From the NCBI RefSeq assembly GCF_019635155.1, contig NZ_JAHBZY010000020.1, positions 1-63,927 on the forward strand: 63,927 bases of DNA, read 5' to 3'. The translations under genes were made by a program, and so were the position numbers. This document shows positions 12,636 to 26,642 of the stretch, one piece after another; the stretch's first letter is position 1, and every line of letters begins with the position of its first letter. The notes beneath the pieces are model-generated. The model was not told where the DNA came from. It worked only from the letters and a program-made list of their open reading frames with translations, and did not search any database. The stretch is from Nitrosomonas sp. (GTDB lineage: Bacteria > Pseudomonadota > Gammaproteobacteria > Burkholderiales > Nitrosomonadaceae).

Positions 12636-12668
12636 ATATTATTAATTCAATTGTGGAGAAATAAAAGA

Positions 12669-12941
12669 ATGCCAAAATATATTATTGAACGCGAAATTCC
12701 TGGGGCGGGCTCACTGACGCAACAAGATTTAAAAACCATTTCGCAAAGCTCATGCAGCATCTTAAGCAGTATGGGACCACGAATCCAATGGCTGGAAAGC
12801 TATGTGACTGACGATAAAATTTATTGCGTCTATATCGCTCCCGATGCAGCCTCCATTAGAGCGCATGCCGAGCAAGGCGGACTCCCCGCCAACCGCATCT
12901 CTCAAGTCAGATCGGTAATCGATCCAACCACGGCTGAATAG
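12669..12941 (+). CDS. DUF4242-family small protein
   Basis: 90 residues, starting MPKYIIEREIPGAGSL, the typical opening of the DUF4242 family (ferredoxin-like fold, includes a nickel-binding Streptomyces protein). The blocks IQWLESYVTDDKIYCVYIAP and RAHAEQGGLPANRI are the conserved ones. ATG 12669 is preceded by GGAG at 12655-12658, which supports it over the in-frame TTG at 12651. It probably forms a unit with the TPR gene that follows, under the TetR protein. Function is not established; metal binding is only a possibility from the family. Confidence 0.75.
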   Translation: MPKYIIEREIPGAGSLTQQDLKTISQSSCSILSSMGPRIQWLESYVTDDKIYCVYIAPDAASIRAHAEQGGLPANRISQVRSVIDPTTAE

Positions 12942-14688: not shown

Positions 14689-15507
14689 CTAAAGACCGCG
14701 AAGCGACTTTACCAGCAAGGATACACCGAACAATAATGCACTGAATAACACGATGGTCGCACCGGATGCGACATTGAAAATGTAGCTTAAATACAAGCCG
14801 GCCACCCCTGTTATGGCACCGATGAGTGTTGAATAAATCACCATTCTACTAAAAACATCCGTCAGCATCCGGGCTGTCATCGCGGGCGCGATCAGAGTCG
14901 CAGCGACCATGGTGACACCCGTCACATTCAGGGAAGCGATAATGACCAGCGTGAGCAATAGCGAAAACAGTAACTGCGCCAGTCCGGTATTAATTCCAAA
15001 GATGCGGGCGGTTTCCTGGTCAAAGGTGGAAAAAAGCAATGCCCGGTAGGTAAAAAACATCATGACCATCGTGATGCACGTGACAAGTCCGATGATCACT
15101 AAATCCTGCTCGGTAATACCAAGGATATTGCCGAATAAGGCGGCCTCGAAATTTTGCTTAAAATTACGCAACTTGCTGATAATCGCCACGCCTAATGCAA
15201 AAATGGCGGTTGTCACGATGCCGATAGCGGCGTCCGATTTGATTTTTCTGTTTTGGGTGATTTTATTGATGATGAGCGCGGCGAGTACGCCCAATACGCA
15301 AGCGCCGACATAAAAATTCAGATTCAATGCAATTCCTATAACCGCGCCGCCGATCGCTGCATGGGACAATCCATGACCGATATAACTCATACCGCGCAGC
15401 ACCACATAAACACCGATCAAGCCACCCGATGCGCCGATCATGAGCGCGGCCAGTAAACCATGGCGAAAAAAAGCATAGTCGAACGGCTCAAGAATATACT
15501 CTATCAT
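14689..15507 (-). CDS. Metal ABC transporter permease (ZnuB/MntB type)
   Basis: 272 residues with about eight hydrophobic helices, the membrane subunit of a cluster A-I metal importer. The GLSHAAIGGAVIGIALN segment is the conserved cytoplasmic coupling region, and GVTMVAATLIAPAMTARMLT is the other family block. Its ATG overlaps the end of the ATPase gene by four bases (ATGA). The metal cannot be told from the permease; zinc, manganese or iron are usual, and nickel is suggested by the NikR context. Confidence 0.88.
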   Translation of the reverse strand: MIEYILEPFDYAFFRHGLLAALMIGASGGLIGVYVVLRGMSYIGHGLSHAAIGGAVIGIALNLNFYVGACVLGVLAALIINKITQNRKIKSDAAIGIVTTAIFALGVAIISKLRNFKQNFEAALFGNILGITEQDLVIIGLVTCITMVMMFFTYRALLFSTFDQETARIFGINTGLAQLLFSLLLTLVIIASLNVTGVTMVAATLIAPAMTARMLTDVFSRMVIYSTLIGAITGVAGLYLSYIFNVASGATIVLFSALLFGVSLLVKSLRGL

Positions 15508-16298
15508 TTGCCGTCATCCGCGAAGCTGAGCGGTGTACTGTTAGCGATCAAGAGATGCCCTTGGTGTCTAATGATGACAATATCGCCGCCGTAAGTCCGC
15601 GTCAAAATTTCATTGGTGAAAATCTCATGGGGGCGTCCTTGCGCAACCACGCCGCGATTAAAACAAATGACCCACGGCAGATGTGACGCTACCGCATTCA
15701 GATCGTGTGTCGTCAATACAATGGCAATGCCTTCTCCATTGATGTCGTTCAGCAAATGCAATATTTCATGCTGCGTTTTGATGTCGACGCCTGCAGTGGG
15801 TTCGTCGAGTATCAGAAGCTTAGGATTGTTAATCAATGCGCGTGCCAAAAATACGCGTTGCCGCTGACCGCCGGACAGATTGCCGATCGGTTGCTGCAAG
15901 CAATCCAGAATGCCTAATCGATCCGCAATCGCTTGAATTTTGCCGCGTTCTTTCCTACTCAGCCAGGGCCAGATACGTCCGTTGGTATAAAGTCCCATCG
16001 TGATAACTTCTTCGACGGTTACCGGAAAATGCCAGTCACTATTGTCGAGTTGCGGTACATAACCAATCGTGTTCGGTTTTATCCGGCTTACCGGCACGTC
16101 GTGCAACTGGATACTGCCCGCAATCACTGGGTGCACGCCCAGAATAACTCTAAGCAACGTAGTTTTACCGCACGCCGTCGGTCCTACAATACCGGCAAAC
16201 CGGCCACCGCTGATTTCCAGTGAGAGACCGGTAAACAATATATTTCGCCCATAACCGGCGGTAACATCGCTGAGTCTGATAGCAGGATTGGATGTCAT
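15504..16298 (-). CDS. Metal ABC transporter ATP-binding protein (ZnuC/MntA type)
   Basis: About 264 residues from ATG 16298. Walker A GPTACGKTT, Q-loop GYVPQLDN, signature LSGGQRQRVFLARAL, Walker B LLILDEPTAGVD and the switch histidine in LTTHDLN are all intact. The family is the ATPase of ZnuABC/MntABC-type importers. ATG 16298 lies directly at the end of the substrate-binding protein gene, with its first base two short of that stop codon; the longer reading from 16325 would overlap it by 26 bases. Middle gene of a three-gene minus-strand operon. Confidence 0.9.
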   Translation of the reverse strand: MTSNPAIRLSDVTAGYGRNILFTGLSLEISGGRFAGIVGPTACGKTTLLRVILGVHPVIAGSIQLHDVPVSRIKPNTIGYVPQLDNSDWHFPVTVEEVITMGLYTNGRIWPWLSRKERGKIQAIADRLGILDCLQQPIGNLSGGQRQRVFLARALINNPKLLILDEPTAGVDIKTQHEILHLLNDINGEGIAIVLTTHDLNAVASHLPWVICFNRGVVAQGRPHEIFTNEILTRTYGGDIVIIRHQGHLLIANSTPLSFADDGK

Positions 16299-16299
16299 G

Positions 16300-17268
16300 C
16301 TAGAAATGAATATTGCCGGTATCAACCTTCGCCATGCAATTCGGAGTGCCTCCCAGCGCTTCCGTCATGATTGCCACATTTTTCGCCATCATGCCGATGA
16401 AAGAATGATGAGGCGGTGCAGGCAATTCATCGTCGGAAAGCTGATCGACGAATTTGACGTTCGCTTCGCGCGCGATTTGTTCCATCACCTTACTGGGAAA
16501 AACTTCCGAACCGAAAATCGCGGGCACACCGGTTCTTCTGATTTGTTTAATGATATTCATCACTTCCTGCGGTCCCGGTTCGGAGAAATCGGAAGGTTGC
16601 ACAGCCGCAATTACGGTCATGCCATAACGCGGTGCAAAATACGCAAAAGAATCATGATAAGTGACCAGCTTGCGATTTTTTTCGGGAATCGTCTCAACAC
16701 ATACAAAAATCGCTTGATCCAATTTTTTCAGTTTACCGAGATAAGTTGCCGCATTGGCTTGATAAGCCGCTTTATTGGCCGGATCCAAAGCAATAAGCTC
16801 CTCCCGAATAATTTCCGCATACCGCATCGACAATTCAATATTAAGCCACACATGCGGATTGGGGTGACCGTGTTCGCGTGGAAAACTGAAATCATACTGC
16901 CAATCTTCTTCTTTGAGCGCGCGGTTCCCCAATTGCAGGATTAATGCCGTTTTCTTTTTGACCTTTTCCGCAAGTTTTAATGTGGGCAGCTCCAAATCGA
17001 GACCATTCATGATGATCAAATCCGCCGCTCGCAACGTTTTTATGTCGGAAGGAATGGGCTCAAAGGTATGTGAGTCGACTCCATCGGGAACGATTCCGGT
17101 CGCTCTGATATGCACTCCGCCGATGTTTTGCACCATATTGGTGATCGGGGAAACCGATGTCATAACATTCGGTTTTTCGCGGCTATCTGCAGCAAGCAGC
17201 TGATATTGAAAAAAAAATGTCAGTGCACATAAAAAAAACATTGCCGCACTATTTATGAGTATTTTCAT
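16300..17268 (-). CDS. Periplasmic metal-binding protein of ABC transporter (ZnuA/TroA family)
   Basis: 322 residues: signal peptide (MKILINSAAMFFLCALTFFF...LLAAD), then the cluster A-I fold. Metal ligands are visible: His in DGVDSHTFEP, His in HPNPHVWLN, His in TYHDSFAYF, and Asp/His in the region DQLSDDELPAPPHHSF. The short acidic/His loop of true ZnuA zinc proteins is small here (FPREHGHPNPH). Start ATG 17268 follows AAGGATTAATT. Divergent from a TonB receptor-nikR pair, with a NikR-like palindrome at 17300-17328 in between, so this importer may carry nickel rather than zinc or manganese; that is inference. Confidence 0.85.
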   Translation of the reverse strand: MKILINSAAMFFLCALTFFFQYQLLAADSREKPNVMTSVSPITNMVQNIGGVHIRATGIVPDGVDSHTFEPIPSDIKTLRAADLIIMNGLDLELPTLKLAEKVKKKTALILQLGNRALKEEDWQYDFSFPREHGHPNPHVWLNIELSMRYAEIIREELIALDPANKAAYQANAATYLGKLKKLDQAIFVCVETIPEKNRKLVTYHDSFAYFAPRYGMTVIAAVQPSDFSEPGPQEVMNIIKQIRRTGVPAIFGSEVFPSKVMEQIAREANVKFVDQLSDDELPAPPHHSFIGMMAKNVAIMTEALGGTPNCMAKVDTGNIHF

Positions 17269-17299
17269 AATTAATCCTTCTTCACGTTAATTCTCATAG

Positions 17300-17328
17300 T
17301 GTATGAAAAGAAAATAATTTATCATACA
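17300..17328. promoter_or_regulatory. NikR-like operator between divergent metal-uptake genes
   Basis: TGTATGA (17300-17306) and TCATACA (17322-17328) form a perfect 7-bp inverted repeat with a 15-base AT-rich spacer. The E. coli NikR operator is GTATGA-N16-TCATAC, so both half-sites match exactly and the spacing differs by one. It lies 32 bases before the leftward ABC operon start and 110 before the rightward TonB receptor start, and nikR follows the receptor. A leftward TATGAT -10-like hexamer is buried in the right half-site. Confidence 0.7.
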
Positions 17329-17438
17329 TGGTAAGGTTATTCTTACTTTTGATGTCGTGCAATACAACTTTTTTATTAAATAAGAATAGCAAAAGTAGAA
17401 CTACTACATTGAAATTAAAGTAGAAAGAAGAGGTATCG

Positions 17439-19520
17439 ATGCGTCAAAAATTTGTAAAACGCATTGCATCACTTTGGCAGATCATTGTGGACAGCATGCT
17501 GTTTTCTTTGATTTGGCCTCAGGGACCGGTTAACGCAGCTGGCGTACCGACACTGAAGGAAATGACGGTGCGCGCCAATTCGCGGGAATTGATCGGCACT
17601 GCCGATTCCGCCAATGAAGGCACAGTGCTCAAACAGCAGCTCGACCTACGCACCGTTTACCGCCCCGGCGAGTTACTGGAAACTGTGCCAGGTTTGGTTG
17701 TAACGCAACATAGCGGCGAAGGTAAAGCCAACCAGTATTTTTTGCGCGGCTTCAATCTCGATCACGGCACGGATTTGCGGATTACCGTCGACGGTATGCT
17801 GGTCAACCAGCGCTCGCATGGACATGGCCAAGGTTGGGCGGATACCAATTTCATTATCCCCGAATTAATCAGCAGCATTCAGTACCTGAAAGGACCCTAT
17901 TACGCGGAACAAGGCGATTTCTCCTCGGCGGGCGCCGCCAGTCTGGGCTACGTCAACACACTGCCGAAAGGCATTGCCAGCTATGGCCTGGGGGAACAGG
18001 GTTTTATGCGTGGATTAGTGGCGAAATCGCATCCAATGGGGGGGGGCAATGTTTTGTACGCGCTGGAATTGCTCACTAAAGATGGTCCATGGATCAAGCA
18101 CGAAGATTTTAAGAAATTCAACGCGGTGCTGCGCTATAGTCAGGATGACGGCCCGACTAAATTTAATGTGACAGCGATGGGTTATGGTGGAAAATGGAAT
18201 TCCACCGATCAAATTCCGCAGCGAGCGGTTGCCAGCGGTTTAATTCCCCGGCTCGGCGCCATCGATCCGAGTGACGGCGGTGAATCACACCGTTTTAGTT
18301 TATCCAGCGCATTGCAACATGCGAGTCGTTTTGGTATTACGCAATTAAATCTGTATACCTTGCACAGCAATCTGGCGCTATTTTCAAACTTCACCTACTT
18401 TCTCGACGACCCGATCAACGGCGATCAATTCTCGCAAATCGACAAGCGCTTTCAGTCGGCAATGAATCTGAATCACGCCTGGGTCAACAAAATCGGCGGT
18501 TTCGAGGTTGAAAATAGCGTAGGTGTTCAATTCCAGAACGATATCATCGACAATGGATTATTGAGCACCAAGCAGCGCCAAACATTGTCGACCACCCGCA
18601 AAGACCATATCAATCAAAACAGCATCGGTATCTACTATCAGAACAGCATCCAATGGCTGGAAAAATTTCGCAGCGTAGCGGGTATGCGCTCGGATTTCTA
18701 TTGGTTTGATGTCAACAGCAATCTCAGCGCGAATTCTGGCAACCGTTACGATAGCATCACCAATCCCAAGCTGAGTTTGATTTTCGGACCCTGGCTGCAA
18801 ACCGAATTCTATTTCAACTATGGCGGCGGCTTTCATAGTAACGATGCGCGCGGCACTACGTCCACCGTCGATCCAAAGTCCGGCGATCCGATTCAGCCTG
18901 TCAATCCGCTGGTGCGCTCAACCGGTTACGAAGTTGGCGTGAGAACAGGCATTCTTCCAGGTTTACAGGCATCATTTGCATTATTCCGTCTGGATATGGC
19001 TTCGGAACTCCTGTTTGTCGGTGACGCCGGTACGACGGAAGCCAGCCGCCCGAGTAAACGGGAGGGATTCGAGGCTTCATTGTTCTATAAGCCTAACGAC
19101 TGGATAATGATCGATGTCGATTATGCGCTCGCGCGGGCGCGTTTCAGCGATTTCGACCCGGCAGGCGATCATATACCCGGTGCAGTTCAGGGAGTAGGCA
19201 AGCTGGCGGTTACCATGGACAATGTGGGTCCACTCTTTGGCAGTCTGCAAATGCGTTATTTCGGTAAACGCTCGCTAATCGAAGACAACAGCGTACAATC
19301 CAACCACACCGTGACACTGAATGGCCAGATCGGTTATAAAATCGGTAAAAATGTGCGGATGACATTGCAAGGCTTCAACCTATTGAACACGCACGCGCAC
19401 GCGATCGATTACTATTACACATCCCGATTACCCGGCGAACCGGCTGCCGGCGTAAGCGATGTGCATTTTCATCCGATCGAGAGCCGTTCGCTGCGCGTCA
19501 ATTGGATAGCGAATTTTTAA
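17439..19520 (+). CDS. TonB-dependent outer-membrane receptor, probably for nickel
   Basis: 693 residues. The N-terminus is hydrophobic and probably a signal sequence. The plug domain is clear (YRPGELLETVPGLVVTQHSGEGKANQYFLRGFNLDHGTDLRI, then GPYYAEQGDFSSAGAASLGYVN). The rest alternates as a beta-barrel and closes with the aromatic terminus VNWIANF. An AGAAGAGG precedes ATG 17439. Many histidines lie in extracellular-like segments (RSHGHGQGW, THAHAIDY, DVHFHP). nikR starts 85 bases downstream and a NikR-like operator lies upstream, so nickel complexes are the best guess; cobalt or a siderophore are alternatives. Confidence 0.88.
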   Translation: MRQKFVKRIASLWQIIVDSMLFSLIWPQGPVNAAGVPTLKEMTVRANSRELIGTADSANEGTVLKQQLDLRTVYRPGELLETVPGLVVTQHSGEGKANQYFLRGFNLDHGTDLRITVDGMLVNQRSHGHGQGWADTNFIIPELISSIQYLKGPYYAEQGDFSSAGAASLGYVNTLPKGIASYGLGEQGFMRGLVAKSHPMGGGNVLYALELLTKDGPWIKHEDFKKFNAVLRYSQDDGPTKFNVTAMGYGGKWNSTDQIPQRAVASGLIPRLGAIDPSDGGESHRFSLSSALQHASRFGITQLNLYTLHSNLALFSNFTYFLDDPINGDQFSQIDKRFQSAMNLNHAWVNKIGGFEVENSVGVQFQNDIIDNGLLSTKQRQTLSTTRKDHINQNSIGIYYQNSIQWLEKFRSVAGMRSDFYWFDVNSNLSANSGNRYDSITNPKLSLIFGPWLQTEFYFNYGGGFHSNDARGTTSTVDPKSGDPIQPVNPLVRSTGYEVGVRTGILPGLQASFALFRLDMASELLFVGDAGTTEASRPSKREGFEASLFYKPNDWIMIDVDYALARARFSDFDPAGDHIPGAVQGVGKLAVTMDNVGPLFGSLQMRYFGKRSLIEDNSVQSNHTVTLNGQIGYKIGKNVRMTLQGFNLLNTHAHAIDYYYTSRLPGEPAAGVSDVHFHPIESRSLRVNWIANF

Positions 19521-19605
19521 CCGGCACAACCGCGCGAGTTTGCCGCTGCGGCAAGAAAGAGATGTTTATTTTCAGCAATTATTATCGATGGCAACCGGAG
19601 GATAT

Positions 19606-20067
19606 ATGGAACGATTTACTATTTCAATGGACGATCAGCTGTTCAAGCAATTCGATGAAGTTGCACAGTCACGCGGTTACTATAATCGCTCCGAAGCGAT
19701 CCGCGATCTTATCCGGGAGTACCTGGAAGCTTCCCGCTTGCAGAAGGACAACAAAGGTTATTGTATGGCAACGTTGAGCTATATCTATAATCACCATGAA
19801 AGGGATTTGGCCAGCCAAGTGACCTCGGCGCATCACCAGCATCACGATCTGACCTTATCGAGCATGCATGTTCATTTGGATCACAACAATTGCCTCGAAG
19901 TTACTATCCTTCGCGGCACCGTTCAGGATGTCAAACGCTTCGCCAATCAAATCATCGCCACCAATGGTGTGCGGCACGGCAAGCTGCATATCGTGCCCAT
20001 TGAGCTTTCACAGGAAACACATGCGCATTCTGCTGTTCCTCATATACATAGCAGTCCGCTAACTTGA
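19606..20067 (+). CDS. nikR: Nickel-responsive regulator NikR
   Basis: 153 residues. Ribbon-helix-helix at the N-terminus (MERFTISMDDQLFKQFDEV...NRSEAIRDLIREYL), then the ACT-like metal domain with the NikR nickel site: His in the SAHHQHHD segment, the HVHLDHNNC stretch giving two His and the Cys. The C-terminal tail is extended and His-bearing (THAHSAVPHIHSS), about 20 residues longer than E. coli NikR. ATG 19606 is supported by GGAGG upstream and by the family N-terminus; longer readings are unconserved. Follows the TonB receptor gene. It should repress nickel uptake when nickel is plentiful. Confidence 0.95.
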   Translation: MERFTISMDDQLFKQFDEVAQSRGYYNRSEAIRDLIREYLEASRLQKDNKGYCMATLSYIYNHHERDLASQVTSAHHQHHDLTLSSMHVHLDHNNCLEVTILRGTVQDVKRFANQIIATNGVRHGKLHIVPIELSQETHAHSAVPHIHSSPLT

Positions 20068-20080
20068 TCAGCTCAATAAT

Positions 20081-20107
20081 AAAAAGCCCTGCTCAGCAGG
20101 GCTTTTT
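20081..20107. terminator. Bidirectional intrinsic terminator between nikR and the urea transporter gene
   Basis: AAAAAGCCCTGC, a short TCA loop region and GCAGGGCTTTTT form a perfect stem flanked by A and T runs on both strands. It sits between the stops of two convergent genes and can terminate both. Confidence 0.93.
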
Positions 20108-20134: not shown

Positions 20135-21118
20135 TTAATGTGCATTTCCCCAATACCGGGATTTACTGGCTGCAAACAAAAACATCCACATGACCAGCAC
20201 GAAAGGAAAAGTCAGCGTCGGTAAGCCGATCGGCGCCAGAAAATTCGCCAAGCCCGCTTGACAAATAATGGTCAAAATTCCCGCGAGCAAGGCCAGCAAT
20301 GCGCTACCCGTGGTTGGTTTGAGAAAAACCCAACCGACCGCCATCATCGTTAAAACCGGATTGAATGCATATAGCCCCATTTCAATAAGCGTTTTATCCG
20401 CACCGAGAAATATCGGTACGACAACGCCTACGATAGCGCCTGAGAGTGCCATAAAAGCGCCGCGTAATGATGTGATCGCAATGCCGATCAGAAACAGGAT
20501 ACCCACAATAATGCTATCGGCAAACATGACTTCGCCAACACCTTTGGTAATTGCCGTATACCAAATGACCGCTGTTTCTTGAGTCAGGGCGGCAAATTCT
20601 GCAGTAACTACCGCAGCTGCGGCGATGTCGGCGGGAATTCCAGGTGCAGGCAATACCGGGCCACGTGAGAATATATCAAAAGAATACACCGCCACCATAA
20701 ACATCCAGCATGTCAGGACAAAGGGCGATGTGGAAGCTGGAATATTGTAAGGCTGCAGAATTCTCATTAAAGCAGCGAGCACGATTGTCGATAGAATTGA
20801 GGCAAGCACTACAAACAACCACAACTGCGGCGTATTTTCCAGGAATAGAAACAAGCAGGGACCGACCAAAGTACCATTGAAGCCATATAGTCCGGCATCG
20901 ATATCATCTTCCGAGAATCCCAGTAAATAAGCCGCAACAGTACTGCTTATAACGCCCACGGTCGCAGCAAGTCCGGCGGTAATTCCGCCAACGTACAATG
21001 CGATTAAAAAAATAAGACCGGTGACCGCGTTGCAACAGAAAAATACTTGACCGACGCCCCTGAAAATAACACGCAAGGGTCTAGGCATCGCCTTGTCGAT
21101 TGATAATGACCAGTCCAT
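20135..21118 (-). CDS. Urea transporter (UT family)
   Basis: 327 residues, about ten membrane segments in two homologous halves, the fold of the UT family of urea channels. The hallmark phrases are GFNGTLVGPCLFLF in the first half and LYAFNPVLTMMAVGWVFL in the second (family GxNGxLvG and yxfNpvL). It provides urea entry across the inner membrane for the urease encoded directly upstream. ATG 21118 follows AGGAGATCATC. It is the last gene of the porin-ureDABCEFG run, 76 bases after ureG. Confidence 0.9.
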   Translation of the reverse strand: MDWSLSIDKAMPRPLRVIFRGVGQVFFCCNAVTGLIFLIALYVGGITAGLAATVGVISSTVAAYLLGFSEDDIDAGLYGFNGTLVGPCLFLFLENTPQLWLFVVLASILSTIVLAALMRILQPYNIPASTSPFVLTCWMFMVAVYSFDIFSRGPVLPAPGIPADIAAAAVVTAEFAALTQETAVIWYTAITKGVGEVMFADSIIVGILFLIGIAITSLRGAFMALSGAIVGVVVPIFLGADKTLIEMGLYAFNPVLTMMAVGWVFLKPTTGSALLALLAGILTIICQAGLANFLAPIGLPTLTFPFVLVMWMFLFAASKSRYWGNAH

Positions 21119-21194: not shown

Positions 21195-21833
21195 TCATCG
21201 GCTTGCTTGTTGTCTCACTTCTTCCAGCAATCCTTGTTTTACGATGAAATCGACAATCTGGTCCACGCCTTCGCCCGTATGCAGATTGGTAAAAACAAAC
21301 GGACGGTCTCCGCGCATTTTTTTAGCGTCACGTGCCATAACCTCCAAATTTGCCCCAACGTATGGCGCCAGATCTGTTTTATTAATCACGAGGAGAGCTG
21401 AACGCGTAATGCCGGGACCTCCTTTGCGAGGTATTTTTTCGCCGGCCGCAACATCAATCACGTAAATCGTCAAATCGGAAAGCTCGGGACTGAAGGTCGA
21501 GGCGAGATTGTCGCCGCCGGATTCAACAAGAATCAGATCGAGATCGGGAAAATCCGCAGTCATGCGTGCAATAGCTTCAAGGTTGATCGAAGCATCTTCG
21601 CGGATTGCCGTATGCGGACATCCGCCTGTTTCCACACCCATCAAGCGTTCCGGAGGCAACGCGTTGGCGCGTAATAAAATCTCCATATCCTCTTTGGTGT
21701 AGATATCATTCGTGATGACCGCCATTTCATAGCGATCACGCATTTTTTTGCTCAAAGCCTCACATAAAGCCGTTTTTCCGGATCCAACCGGCCCACCGAT
21801 ACCTACTCGCAGGGGATTTGATGGTTTATTCAT
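21195..21833 (-). CDS. ureG: Urease accessory GTPase UreG
   Basis: 212 residues. Hydrolyses GTP to drive nickel delivery to apo-urease together with UreD and UreF. The P-loop GGPVGSGKT, the nickel-binding Cys-Pro-His motif ([11 protein letters not shown]), [11 protein letters not shown] and the guanine-specificity NKTD are intact. Placed 17 bases after ureF. Confidence 0.97.
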
Positions 21834-21850
21834 GTTGTTATATCCAAAAA

Positions 21851-22528
21851 TTATGATCGATAAATTCTGCTATATTGCGTTTCATGCTGTATGGACAACA
21901 GCGACAGCCCTGGCGCCCAATTGGATAACTCTTCATCGTTGAGTTGCTGTGCTCGCAGCGCTGCCTTTTCAATCACAGGGTGCAAGGAAAGCAGTAAACT
22001 TTGTCCCGAAACCTGACCGAGTGGAACCGATTTAACGCAAACCAATACTTGATTTTCAACCATCGAAAACAACATGCCGGACAGCGCCGCCTCATGGGGT
22101 ACCGCCAGCGCTTCCGCCGCACCCGCAAACGCTGTGGGAAATGGAATTTCGGATTGGCCTGCCAGGATCGCCCGCAGCGAATCATCTGCAATGCTGAGAT
22201 CCATAACGAGTTTTGCCAGCGAATAACCCATCTGAATCGTTTCCGCGCGGAACTCGGCAGTGTCGCGTGCTGCAATAAAGCATTCGGTCCAATAAGTAAC
22301 TGTTGCCGCATCACGCTGGGAAAAAGCTTTAAGCAGACGCCATACGATCGGTACTTCGAAGTCTGCCGCGATATCTAAATATTCCTTGATCCATATTCGT
22401 GCTGAGTTCTCGTTATGGACGCTACCATTCTCGATCGCCGATTCCAAACCCTGTGAATAGGTATAAGCGCCCACCGGCAGCGATGGGCTGGCCAACTGTA
22501 ATAAACGAAGCAATGCGGCAGTTTGCAA
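21851..22528 (-). CDS. ureF: Urease accessory protein UreF
   Basis: 225 residues, all-helical scaffold that binds UreD and UreG in the urease activation complex. The family start [24 protein letters not shown] is clear, as is SLHPVIEKA near the end. The best start is a TTG at 22528 with AGGAA about six bases upstream; no ATG lies close enough to give the family N-terminus. Eight bases separate it from ureE. Confidence 0.95.
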
Positions 22529-22536
22529 GGCTATTC

Positions 22537-23064
22537 CTAAGATTGTGAGTCGGAAGGACGATGAATCTTTTGACGTAACGGTATTGGCGCCAAAGGCCCA
22601 TGCGCATGATAATGACCATCGCCATGATGGTGATGCCCACCGCTGCTGCCATAGGCGCCTGATTCCGGTTCAAATTGAGCATTTTCCTCAATCACCGTAG
22701 CACCCAAGCCTTCCAGCATTTGCTTCAATACGTTATCGATATGAATACGCAAAAATCCTTCACCTACCTGTGTTTGCGTATGGCGATTACCTAAATGGAA
22801 AGCACAGCGCAGTAAATCATGCGGTGTCCGGCAGGTGATCCGGTAAGTCGGCTCATCGGCTGCAATGATTTGCACCACCCGCCCATCAGCGCTTTTGAGT
22901 AAGTCATTATTGCGTAAAACTGTGCCCCGCTCGGTAAAAATAGCGACTTCCTCGCCACATGCGAGCGCTGTTCTTAGTCGGCTGTTTTCGCGCATTTCAT
23001 AAGGTAAAACCAATTGCGCGAAAACCGATTCGGCGTGATCTATTTTAGTATTCAGCGTAATCAT
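22537..23064 (-). CDS. ureE: Urease nickel metallochaperone UreE
   Basis: 175 residues. N-terminal UreE domain (LVLPYEMRENSRLRTALACGEEVAIF...RGTVLRNND), a C-terminal nickel-binding domain (HLGNRHTQTQV), and a His-rich tail (GGHHHHGDGHYHAHG) that stores extra nickel. ATG 23064 has no recognisable ribosome binding site and lies just downstream of a hairpin (23091-23149), so its expression may depend on RNA structure or coupling. Gene order is standard otherwise. Confidence 0.96.
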   Translation of the reverse strand: MITLNTKIDHAESVFAQLVLPYEMRENSRLRTALACGEEVAIFTERGTVLRNNDLLKSADGRVVQIIAADEPTYRITCRTPHDLLRCAFHLGNRHTQTQVGEGFLRIHIDNVLKQMLEGLGATVIEENAQFEPESGAYGSSGGHHHHGDGHYHAHGPLAPIPLRQKIHRPSDSQS

Positions 23065-23090
23065 CTGTTGTTATTATGAGCAATGAAAGA

Positions 23091-23149
23091 CTGTAGATGA
23101 CCGCTACCACTGTAACCGGCGTGGCCGGGACTGTGGTAGCACTCTACAG
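23091..23149 (-). ncRNA. Intercistronic hairpin between ureC and ureE
   Basis: CTGTAGA (23091-23097) pairs with TCTACAG (23143-23149), GCTACCAC (23103-23110) with GTGGTAGC (23133-23140), and CCGGC with GCCGG at the tip (23116-23128, GTG loop). The helix is long and interrupted by small internal loops. On the minus strand no T-run follows, so it is not a classical terminator. It could act in RNA processing, stability, or attenuation between the structural and accessory urease genes. Confidence 0.65.
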
Positions 23150-23210
23150 CGGAGAGACTTCCGGGTTTAGGAGAATGCTGCACAAGAATCCTAACGTAGT
23201 TTACTCCGCT
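23148..23210 (-). ncRNA. Second nested inverted repeat in the ureC-ureE spacer
   Basis: AGCGGAG (23148-23154) and CTCCGCT (23204-23210) enclose a shorter pair, TTAGGA (23167-23172) and TCCTAA (23189-23194). With the neighbouring hairpin, nearly all of the 156-base gap can fold. No gene in this gap is credible. Confidence 0.5.
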
Positions 23211-23220
23211 GCCGGTATTC

Positions 23221-24927
23221 CTAGAAGAGAAAATATCGTTGCGCCATCGGCAACACATCTTCCGCGCCGCATGTCAGCAGTTGACCATCCGCGCGTACTT
23301 CATAGGTTTCCGGATCGACTTCCATTTTAGGCGTCGCGCTATTGTGGATCATATCTTTCTTGCGTAGATTCCGGGTATTTTTAACCGGGATAATATCTTT
23401 ATCCAGTTTTAGCTGATCCACCAAACCCGCGCCAAGTGCTGCTTGTGAAGCGAAAGTAAAACATGATGTTTTGATGCCTCCGCCATATCCACCAAACATA
23501 TAGCGATAATGAACGGGTTGCGGGGTTGGAATGGATGCATTGGGATCCCCCATCAGTGATGCGGCAATCATTCCGCCTTTCAGAATCATCGACGGCTTGA
23601 CACCGAAGAAAGCCGGTCTCCATAGCACCAGATCGGCATATTTACCGACCTCTATGGAGCCGATCGCATGTGAAATGCCATGTGTAATTGCCGGATTGAT
23701 CGTGTATTTGGCGACGTAGCGCTTAACCCGGAAATTGTCGTTTCTCGAGTTATCTTCCTGTAACGTGCCACGTTGTATTTTCATTTTATGAGCGGTCTGC
23801 CAAGTGCGCAGCACAACCTCACCGATCCGGCCCATTGCCTGAGAATCCGAAGACATCATTGAAATGGCGCCCATATCATGCAGAATATCTTCGGCTGCGA
23901 TCGTTTCCTTACGAATGCGCGACTCCGCAAAAGCAAGATCTTCAGCAATATTAGCGTGCAAATGATGGCACACCATCAGCATATCCAAATGCTCATCGAG
24001 AGTGTTGACGGTATAAGGACGAGTTGGATTGGTCGATGATGGTAATACATTGTCAAGACCCACGACAGCGATGATATCGGGTGCATGACCACCACCAGCA
24101 CCTTCGGTATGAAAGGTGTGTATCGTGCGGTCTTTCATCGCCGCAATGGTATTTTCCAGGTAACCGCCCTCATTAATGGTATCGGTATGAATCGCAACCT
24201 GCACATCGTATTTGTCCGCAACTGCCAGACAATTATCGATTGCGGCGTAAGTCGTTCCCCAATCCTCATGAAGTTTCAACCCGCACGCTCCGGCCAGCAC
24301 TTGCTCGTCAAGCGGCGTCGGCAAACTGGTATTGCCCTTACCGAAGAACCCTGTATTCATGACCAATCCATCGGAGGCTCTGAGCATCGAATGGATATGC
24401 CAAGGACCAGGCGTACAGGTGGTAGCGGCCGTTCCAACCGCGGGACCGGTACCACCGCCCAGCATGGTCGTAATACCGTTCATCATGGCATCTTCGGCTT
24501 GTTGTGGCGAAATAAAGTGGATATGCGTATCAACACCTCCCGCGGTGATAATCAGATTCTCACCGGCAATAATCTCAGTGGCTGAACCAATAGCCATTGT
24601 GACATTCGGTTGAATATCCGGATTTCCGGCTTTGCCGATACCCGCAATTTTGCCGTTCTTGATGCCGATATCGGCTTTAACGATTCCCCAATGATCGATG
24701 ATAATCGCATTGGTAATTACGGTATCCATGACATCCGCGTGATTACGCTGGGATTGCCCCATACCGTCACGTATCACTTTGCCACCACCGAACTTTACTT
24801 CTTCGCCGTAAGTAGTGAAGTCTTTTTCAATTTCTATAAATAGTTCTGTATCAGCCAAGCGAACACGGTCTCTAGTCGTTGGCCCCACCATTTCGGCATA
24901 GGATTGACGGGAAATTTTTACGCTCAT
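23221..24927 (-). CDS. ureC: Urease alpha subunit UreC
   Basis: 568 residues, the catalytic subunit hydrolysing urea to ammonia and carbamate at a dinuclear nickel site. All site residues are present: His135 and His137 (GVDTHIHFI), the carbamylated Lys218 ([12 protein letters not shown]), His247 (VAIHTDT), His273 ([14 protein letters not shown]), the flap Cys320-His321 (MVCHHLH) and Asp361 (SSDSQAMGR). Length is normal. ATG 24927 follows GGAG. Lies 32 bases after ureB. Confidence 0.98.
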
Positions 24928-24959
24928 TTTTTACTCCTGCAAAATTGTTGCGATACAAA

Positions 24960-25280
24960 CTATTTCAGTTTGCCCATTACTTTTTGATTAAATCCATACA
25001 CGACCCGGTCACCCGAAAGCTCGACGAGCTCCACGGTCCTCTCTTGTCCGGGTTCGAAGCGAATGGCGGTGCCTGCCATAATGTTCAAACGCATGCCATA
25101 CGCCGCATCACGATCAAATTTCATGCCGGAATTGACTTCATAAAAATGAAAATGGGAACCAATCTGAATCGGACGATCCCCGCCATTGGAAACTGTCAGA
25201 GTTTTGGTTTTCCGACCAGCATTCAATTCGATTTCACCCGGCTCAATAAACACTTCGCCTGGAATCATGGGTATTCTCAT
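24960..25280 (-). CDS. ureB: Urease beta subunit UreB
   Basis: 106 residues, structural beta subunit of the (UreABC)3 enzyme. Family signatures: [21 protein letters not shown], then [13 protein letters not shown] and [20 protein letters not shown] 25280 follows AGGAGAATGTC. Separate from UreA, as usual in proteobacteria. Confidence 0.97.
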
Positions 25281-25303
25281 GACATTCTCCTATTGCTTAT
25301 TCG

Positions 25304-25606
25304 TTAAATAATCGGATTATGAACGGTGACCAATTTGGTTCCGTCGGGAAATGTCGCTTCCACTTGAATATCCGGAATCATCTCGGGAACGCCTTCCATA
25401 ACATCTCTGCGCGTCAACACCTCTCGACCGGATGCCATCAGCTCCGCTACCGAATGGCCATCCCGAGCACCTTCCAATACGGCGCAGGTAATCAGCGCAA
25501 CCGCTTCGGGATAATTGAGCTTCAAGCCACGGGCTTTGCGCCGTTCAGCCAGCAATCCGGCGGTAAAAATTTGCAGTTTATCTTTCTCTCTAGGTGTTAA
25601 ATCCAT
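25304..25606 (-). CDS. ureA: Urease gamma subunit UreA
   Basis: 100 residues, starting [27 protein letters not shown], and ending with [17 protein letters not shown], both hallmarks of UreA. AGGAGAAAAGCG precedes ATG 25606. First structural urease gene in the run, 91 bases after ureD. Confidence 0.97.
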
Positions 25607-25697
25607 CGCTTTTCTCCTGGGTAAAGTTACATTTACAACTAAGCCGCGGTCCTATCCGAAGATAAATAAAAATCCTGACCAGCAGCACTAGCGCCAT

Positions 25698-26642
25698 TCA
25701 TGTGCTCCACATCCTGGGTACAATTGCGGGGCGGCCGAGAATTTCCGGACGGAGCACCCCCCAAGTCCGCAGCATGATACGCCGCGCCGCTTCGCTCGAA
25801 TTGCCCAAATAACGGACCACGGTAATCGACTTAAGCTGCGAAACGCCGGCCTGACCGGAATCACCAGCGATTTTCGCGGATTCTTCGCGCGCCAAATCGA
25901 TCAATGCCTGCGGTACCGTTTTTCCAGTCAATAGAAGTGTAGCGCATACCGGTCTGCCAGATAAAGCAAGCCGGCCATGCATGGCGGAGCTTTCACCTTG
26001 CAACCGTATCTGTTCCAACCAAATCATCTTGCCATTGCGCTTGATACTCGTACGCTGCTTGATTTGACCATTATTAAATGTTTCACCCGATGCCGTACGT
26101 CCAAAACATAATATTTCACAACCCACATAGAGAGCATTATCTTCAAGGGTCACTTGATGATCGATGTCGACATTGGCATGGTTATAAAAGATGGTTTCTT
26201 GCGGCACCCATTCCAGCGCGGCACCTTTACCGGCATGGAGTGTGATTTTCTGATGCGAAGTATGACCATTGGCTTTGTACCATTTCGCGGCACCGGGTGT
26301 CGTAATCTGCGCGCTTGCAGACGTTCCGATATCAGCGGAAATCTCCAACTGATCGCCTCCGACAATGCCTCCCGGGGGATGGATAATGACAGTATGACAA
26401 ACTTCCCTTCCTTCCGGATACAATGGCTTCTGTACCAGCAGCGGACCAAAATGATCTCTCGCCACTAAACGGGTAGTACCGTCAATTTCAGCAAACTGAA
26501 GCGCTAATCTTGCTTGCAATGGCTTATGAGTGGAACCGATCGCCGGTTCCGGCGAAATCTCGAGTGATGATTTATGACCATTCAGAATAGCCGGACTCCG
26601 TTGTTTAATGACTGATTCTTCTGGATATGGAGATAGAAGCAT
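25698..26642 (-). CDS. ureD: Urease accessory protein UreD (UreH)
   Basis: 314 residues. UreD binds apo-urease and channels nickel from UreG/UreF. Family blocks: VCHTVIIHPPGGIVGGDQLEI, QITTPGAAKWYKANG and LEWVPQETIFYNHANVDI. The N-terminal ~40 residues before LQARLALQFAEIDG are not conserved, and no strong ribosome binding site marks the ATG at 26642, so a later start is possible. Sits directly after the porin gene (35 bases). Confidence 0.94.
   Translation of the reverse strand: MLLSPYPEESVIKQRSPAILNGHKSSLEISPEPAIGSTHKPLQARLALQFAEIDGTTRLVARDHFGPLLVQKPLYPEGREVCHTVIIHPPGGIVGGDQLEISADIGTSASAQITTPGAAKWYKANGHTSHQKITLHAGKGAALEWVPQETIFYNHANVDIDHQVTLEDNALYVGCEILCFGRTASGETFNNGQIKQRTSIKRNGKMIWLEQIRLQGESSAMHGRLALSGRPVCATLLLTGKTVPQALIDLAREESAKIAGDSGQAGVSQLKSITVVRYLGNSSEAARRIMLRTWGVLRPEILGRPAIVPRMWST

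Follow-up and report, generated by a model that had tools for sequence, protein, structure and literature searches.

The locus described here raises the question of whether an ABC importer of the Znu type can supply nickel to urease. The nickel transporters generally recognised in bacteria are NikABCDE, NikMNQO, NiCoT, HupE/UreJ and UreH-type systems. The comparative nickel surveys consulted list the same systems (PMC2667541). Our literature search found no description of a Znu-type nickel importer, and an earlier prediction in subscription papers is possible. A preliminary description of this stretch of Nitrosomonas DNA (63.9 kb in length, referred to here as the window) had claimed a NikR-linked nickel uptake locus, built from a TonB receptor and a Znu-type ABC importer and feeding urease. 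We found that comparison with relatives supports this claim along four partly independent lines: co-loss of the transporter with urease, a conserved shared operator, a tandem of ureE with the transporter genes, and the neighbours of receptor homologues.

Gene content of the locus

All of the genes named in the preliminary description, nikR 3' of the TonB receptor gene, a divergent cluster A-I ABC transporter and a nearby urease cluster (ureG, F, E, C, B, A and D), were found where it had placed them and were identified by Pfam (Table 1). The genes for the binding protein, ATPase and permease overlap or touch at their ends (permease and ATPase genes by 4 bp) and form a tight three-gene operon on the minus strand (14689-17268). 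For the ATPase, an ATG start at 16298 is likelier than the TTG at 16325 chosen in the open reading frame list. This operon and the receptor-nikR unit (17439-20067, plus strand) diverge from a single 170-bp gap, and the urea transporter gene and ureDABCEFG lie downstream of the receptor-nikR side. Urease is the presumed nickel customer of the locus. A hairpin between the convergent nikR and urea transporter genes looks like a two-way terminator, and was absent from the output of a terminator scan. A promoter scan returned 6 sites where 4.4 were expected and we claim no promoter.

Table 1. Features of the locus, with their positions in the window and the basis of each assignment
Feature	Position	Strand	Basis
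Permease of Znu-type ABC importer, ABC-3 family	14689..15507	-	Pfam PF00950, E 1.3e-67
Importer ATPase	15504..16298	-	Pfam PF00005, E 6.9e-29
Periplasmic metal-binding protein, ZnuA family	16300..17268	-	Pfam PF01297, E 3.8e-72
Predicted NikR-type operator GTATGA-N15-TCATAC	17301..17327	.	Pattern scan and position conservation
TonB-dependent outer-membrane receptor	17439..19520	+	Pfam plug E 7.7e-14, barrel E 4.2e-27
nikR, nickel-responsive regulator	19606..20067	+	Pfam NikR_C E 4.7e-30, RHH_1 E 2.3e-9; NCBIfam
Hairpin between convergent nikR and urea transporter genes, A and T runs at flanks	20081..20107	.	Read from sequence
Urea transporter, UT family	20135..21118	-	Pfam PF03253, E 1.8e-89; TIGR03441 above cut-off
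Urease genes ureD-ureA-ureB-ureC-ureE-ureF-ureG	21195..26642	-	Pfam, all seven proteins

The regulator has both the RHH domain and NikR_C together with three histidines and one cysteine (H77, H88, H90 and C96) that are invariant in 13 aligned NikRs and that we take, from the assignment in E. coli NikR, to be the nickel ligands. The protein passes NCBIfam NF002815 (201.8 bits, cut-off 83) and falls narrowly under the cut-off of TIGR02793 (164.8 against 175.45). Its start is most likely the ATG at 19606 and not the TTG at 19540, since GGAGG lies upstream and 12 aligned relatives begin there. The receptor has both the plug and the barrel domain of the TonB-dependent family.

Two further matches were recorded in the window. 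An SCO4226-like "nickel responsive" protein (PF14026) is encoded at 12651-12941 (plus strand), between a TetR gene and a TPR gene; we rejected it as part of the locus, as it and these two neighbours had zero matches in the loci of 40 relatives. On the plus strand at 24489-24771, antisense to ureC, there is a match to Rfam 5_ureB_sRNA (97.1 bits), which may reflect coding conservation or a real antisense RNA.

The importer combines a ZnuA-family protein, an ABC-3 permease and an ABC ATPase, and its three genes match the ABC-3, ABC_tran and ZnuA families and not the NikABCDE, NikMNQO or NiCoT families. Its binding protein is the sole ZnuA-family protein in the window's genome. The ABC subunits score below the cut-off of every named Zn/Mn equivalog shown by NCBIfam; for the binding protein the bit scores and cut-offs were 187.3/350 for AztC, 95.3/268 for ZnuA PRK09545 and 172.6/400 for MntC. 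In a tree of 103 binding proteins, one group of 74 (support 83, not starred) contains every one of the 64 that have nikR or urease genes nearby. This group adjoins a Chloroflexi group without nikR and lies far from the E. coli-type ZnuA. The importer shares its three-subunit plan, Pfam families and three pocket histidines with ZnuABC, AztABC and MntABC, but its binding protein belongs to a deep clade of its own, and the locus is linked to nikR and urease and not to zur.

We compared the metal pocket by alignment only. The histidines H67, H139 and H205 are present in 125 of 125 clade members and in all nine ZnuA-type rows, so nickel and zinc cannot be told apart from the pocket. However, the spacing from H67 to H139 is an invariant 72 residues in the clade against 75-89 in the ZnuA-type rows, and positions 254-255 read SE in the clade and EP in the ZnuA type. 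Among candidates for a fourth ligand, D279 and D280 are invariant across the clade and D275 is not. The closest solved relatives in the PDB are Mn, Zn and Fe binders (MntC, AztC-like and others).

The predicted shared operator in two gene arrangements

The preliminary description had suggested a search for the same neighbourhood in other genomes and had placed a NikR-like palindrome in the shared intergenic region. We read 40 loci and found two layouts. In layout 1 (20 loci) the ABC operon diverges from receptor and nikR as in the window. In layout 2 (14 loci) the nickel-chaperone gene ureE is followed by sbpA, atpC and permB in tandem, and the receptor-nikR pair is elsewhere in the cluster or absent. 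The layout-2 cluster also contains a beta-carbonic anhydrase, a member of a zinc enzyme family, and between its ABC genes and ureD there is a gene for a protein of about 490 aa (L063:6638-8125 and equivalents), one copy of which was searched and gave no Pfam match.

The palindrome is present as GTATGA-N15-TCATAC and, as would be required of a predicted NikR site, precedes its putative targets, with 33 bp between it and the binding-protein gene and about 110 bp between it and the receptor gene. It is the only match in the window with spacers of 14-17, where shuffled sequences gave an expectation of 0.01. One detail differs from what its likeness to the E. coli site had implied: a GTATGA/TCATAC palindrome precedes an ABC nickel importer in both, but the spacing is N15 here and is reported as N16 in E. 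coli (PMC7055735), and the transporter family differs from NikABCDE.

Genome-wide, the pattern with spacers N14-17 matched in 58 of 120 relatives. We dropped these counts as evidence because a backwards control also matched in many genomes and some matches lay in the ureC region, where from their positions they appear to be ureC coding sequence. Since both pattern and control are common genome-wide, only the position of the site counts. At that position, 40 of 49 distinct divergent intergenic regions (a set that includes near-copies) hold an N15 site matching 11 or more of the 12 letters, against 0-1 for other spacings and 0.02 for shuffles. Across the non-coding parts of the 40 loci there were 48 sites at N15 against 14-18 at N12, N13, N14 and N16. 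The site also follows NikR: the best N15 score was at least 11/12 in 22 of 31 NikR-positive loci but in only one of nine NikR-negative loci, and that one comes from a 51%-complete genome (G033). Three NikR-positive layout-2 loci (L070, L077 and L081) are without the operator, and in two other layout-2 loci (L075 and L076) its place may be in front of ureD. Most divergent regions have the site closer to the binding-protein gene, many at 25-40 bp, and several Nitrosospira-like regions hold two sites.

Co-occurrence with urease and wider distribution

We then compared 120 members of the family, drawn from a larger group, of which 61 have NikR_C, 70 have ZnuA and 73 have the urease gamma subunit. 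Among the 103 Nitrosomonas- and Nitrosospira-like genomes, ZnuA was present in 65 of 65 that are urease-positive and absent from 35 of 38 that are urease-negative. Of the three exceptions, G079 retains ureE and nikR, G105 is 91%-complete, and G090 has a ZnuA of only 27% identity; both G079 and G105 have the transporter and NikR but no ureA. To allow for the non-independence of relatives, we built an rpoB tree of 88 of the 120 genomes, excluding those less than 90% complete or with no rpoB match (only four are from genera g2 and g4), and scored ZnuA as absent in G090 and in G008, where it is below the cut-off and contains stops. Fifteen independent pairs differ in urease. The transporter changed the same way in 13, did not differ in two and changed the opposite way in none (sign p 0.00024), as expected of a nickel importer that is lost with nickel enzymes. 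For nikR, 10-12 pairs changed the same way and 0-1 the opposite way. Transporter and urease genes are usually neighbours, and single deletions may therefore account for part of the co-loss; a comparison of 16 genomes found three that retain both at distances of 81 kb to 1.8 Mb. ZIP, a transporter that probably supplies zinc, is found in 117 of 120 genomes whether or not they have urease, so this likely zinc route does not follow urease.

Other genomes mark the edges of this pattern. Seven urease-positive Nitrosomonas-like genomes keep the ABC transporter and have no NikR, and seven urease-positive genomes of genus g4 have neither ZnuA nor NikR and carry a divergent urease in the order ureBCA (L295-L301). 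Both G071 and G072 are without NikR and ZnuA. Urease-negative N. communis Nm2 uses urea carboxylase genes (PMC4714114), as does urease-negative Nitrosomonas Is79 (PMC3764937). HupE/UreJ, the one other nickel transporter family covered by our search of the relatives, occurs in 45 of 120 genomes; the window's genome has it solely as a receptor fusion protein.

Named genomes held 184 relatives, of which we examined the best 80. Of these, 63 loci are from Pseudomonadota, with nikR in 43, urease genes in 41 and either in 55, and nikR accompanies three of the 17 others. In one of these three, from Candidatus Manganitrophus (L168), nikR lies inside the operon, between the binding-protein and ATPase genes. 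Seven nikR-linked loci come from genomes not named as Nitrosomonadaceae (L134, L139, L143 and L165-L168), and six of these genomes have a urease or NiFe-hydrogenase match, some of the hydrogenase matches being partial. At L167 a NicO-family gene (PF03824; L167:3633-5348) stands directly before nikR and the binding protein. Many Chloroflexi homologues are without NikR, and six of those genomes have neither urease nor NiFe-hydrogenase matches. One Chloroflexi homologue (L178) adjoins a Fur-family gene, so the wider binding-protein family may not be all nickel. A class-wide sample had NikR in 42 of 369 genomes. Some ZnuA was present in 31 of the 40 NikR genomes outside the window's family, but within 5 kb of nikR in only three and about 19 kb away in a fourth, which indicates that the pairing is not common. 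All four of these ZnuAs are of the same subfamily, while the E. coli type was found in three other genomes that we checked.

Receptor homologues and the predicted nickel route

Receptor homologues were found in 48 plasmid records. Of 16 regions that we viewed, 10 have nikR, HoxN or hydrogenase genes beside the receptor. In seven nikR is near: Afipia (with hyp genes), Paraburkholderia (with HoxN), Methylomagnum, Polymorphobacter, Novosphingobium, Methylocystis and a Comamonadaceae. HoxN and hydrogenase genes without nikR are found in Cupriavidus pHG1 and two near-identical Bradyrhizobium regions. None of the three occurs in Methylorubrum CM4, where cobalamin synthesis genes are near, or in Variovorax, M. 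aquaticum, Indioceanicola, Sphingobium and Methylobacterium XJLW. The operator spacing is N16 on some alphaproteobacterial plasmids and N15 in Methylomagnum and the Comamonadaceae. At L134 exbD, exbB and tonB come after receptor and nikR in the same cluster. A "zinc ABC" binding protein beside nikR and receptor in Methylomagnum was considered as a relative and set aside, as it had no match to the window's protein.

We also observed a HupE/UreJ domain and a complete TonB receptor in one open frame of 902-931 aa (L312:3317-6031, L313:3770-6478, L319:4115-6910 and, in the window's own genome, L311:2145-4916 on G000:C7). The receptor portion shares 45% identity with that of the window, and at the junction a hydrophobic helix and an A-x-A-like site resemble a retained signal peptide. 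In four genomes without NikR (G043, G067, G073 and G088) a copy ends a cluster of urease, urea transporter and carbonic anhydrase genes. Other copies adjoin thioredoxin-like and CopC genes, so copper is also a possible substrate.

Related systems are known. In Helicobacter, a TonB receptor and an ABC importer also bring nickel for urease under NikR (FrpB4, FecA3 and NiuBDE); NiuBDE is not of the Znu kind, a distinction made by description and not by sequence. Neisseria likewise pairs a TonB receptor with a Znu importer, but ZnuD and ZnuABC form a zinc system (PMC2895646), whereas we predict a nickel system. NikR, TonB nickel receptors and Znu-type importers are thus each known, and their combination as a nickel route would be a new variant.

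From these comparisons we consider it very probable that the locus is dedicated to acquiring nickel for urease. One rival is that the ABC importer carries zinc (or manganese) in the ordinary way and simply happens to have a nickel receptor and urease as neighbours. In its favour are the ZnuA fold, the three common histidines, the nearest PDB sequences, namely MntC, AztC-like and other Mn/Zn/Fe proteins, and the presence of a beta-carbonic anhydrase in the layout-2 cluster. However, this rival is hard to reconcile with the loss of the genome's only ZnuA, which 35 of the 38 urease-negative relatives lack and which has disappeared together with urease 13 times while ZIP is near-universal, with a predicted NikR operator in the promoter region of the importer, or with subunits below every Zn/Mn cut-off shown, and we regard it as very unlikely. 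It is also unlikely that NikR controls only the receptor and itself, with the ABC operon regulated otherwise and perhaps still carrying nickel. One palindrome does serve two divergent units, and some layout-2 transporters occur in genomes without NikR, but among divergent regions the site is mostly closer to the binding-protein gene (33 bp in the window) and several Nitrosospira-like regions have two.

TonB receptors usually take chelates, and the receptor could import a chelate of nickel (or cobalt) while the ABC importer takes both nickel and cobalt. The cobalamin synthesis genes near the Methylorubrum CM4 homologue are in keeping with this, but the open reading frames read next to the locus include no metallophore biosynthesis genes and the transporter strictly tracks urease; we hold this to be possible, though doubtful.

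For nickel acquisition, we infer a route whose metal, direction of regulation, hand-over from receptor to ABC importer and chemical form of nickel are all predicted. When cellular nickel is low, apo-NikR would leave the shared operator and both divergent units would be made. Nickel, either free or as a chelate, would cross the outer membrane through the TonB receptor and be bound in the periplasm by the ZnuA-family protein; the ABC-3 permease and ATPase would then move it into the cytoplasm, where UreE and UreG would load urease. With enough nickel, Ni-NikR would bind GTATGA-N15-TCATAC and shut both units. A wider proposal, which we put a little short of an even chance, is that a dedicated nickel-import branch of cluster A-I extends from Proteobacteria to Nitrospirota and works with a NikR-linked TonB receptor family whose inner-membrane partners are exchangeable: a Znu-type ABC system in the ammonia oxidisers, HoxN on plasmids of Bradyrhizobium and Paraburkholderia, and HupE/UreJ fused to the receptor in one polypeptide, with a possible signal peptidase cut at the junction.

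By default, cluster A-I importers receive zinc or manganese annotations, and the clade of this locus would be nickel importers hidden under those names. The locus offers a test system for metal choice in a common three-histidine pocket, and the repeated co-loss with urease makes the nickel prediction directly testable in harmless strains in culture. Nickel supply to urease decides whether ammonia oxidisers can live on urea, and the locus would be a marker for that supply.
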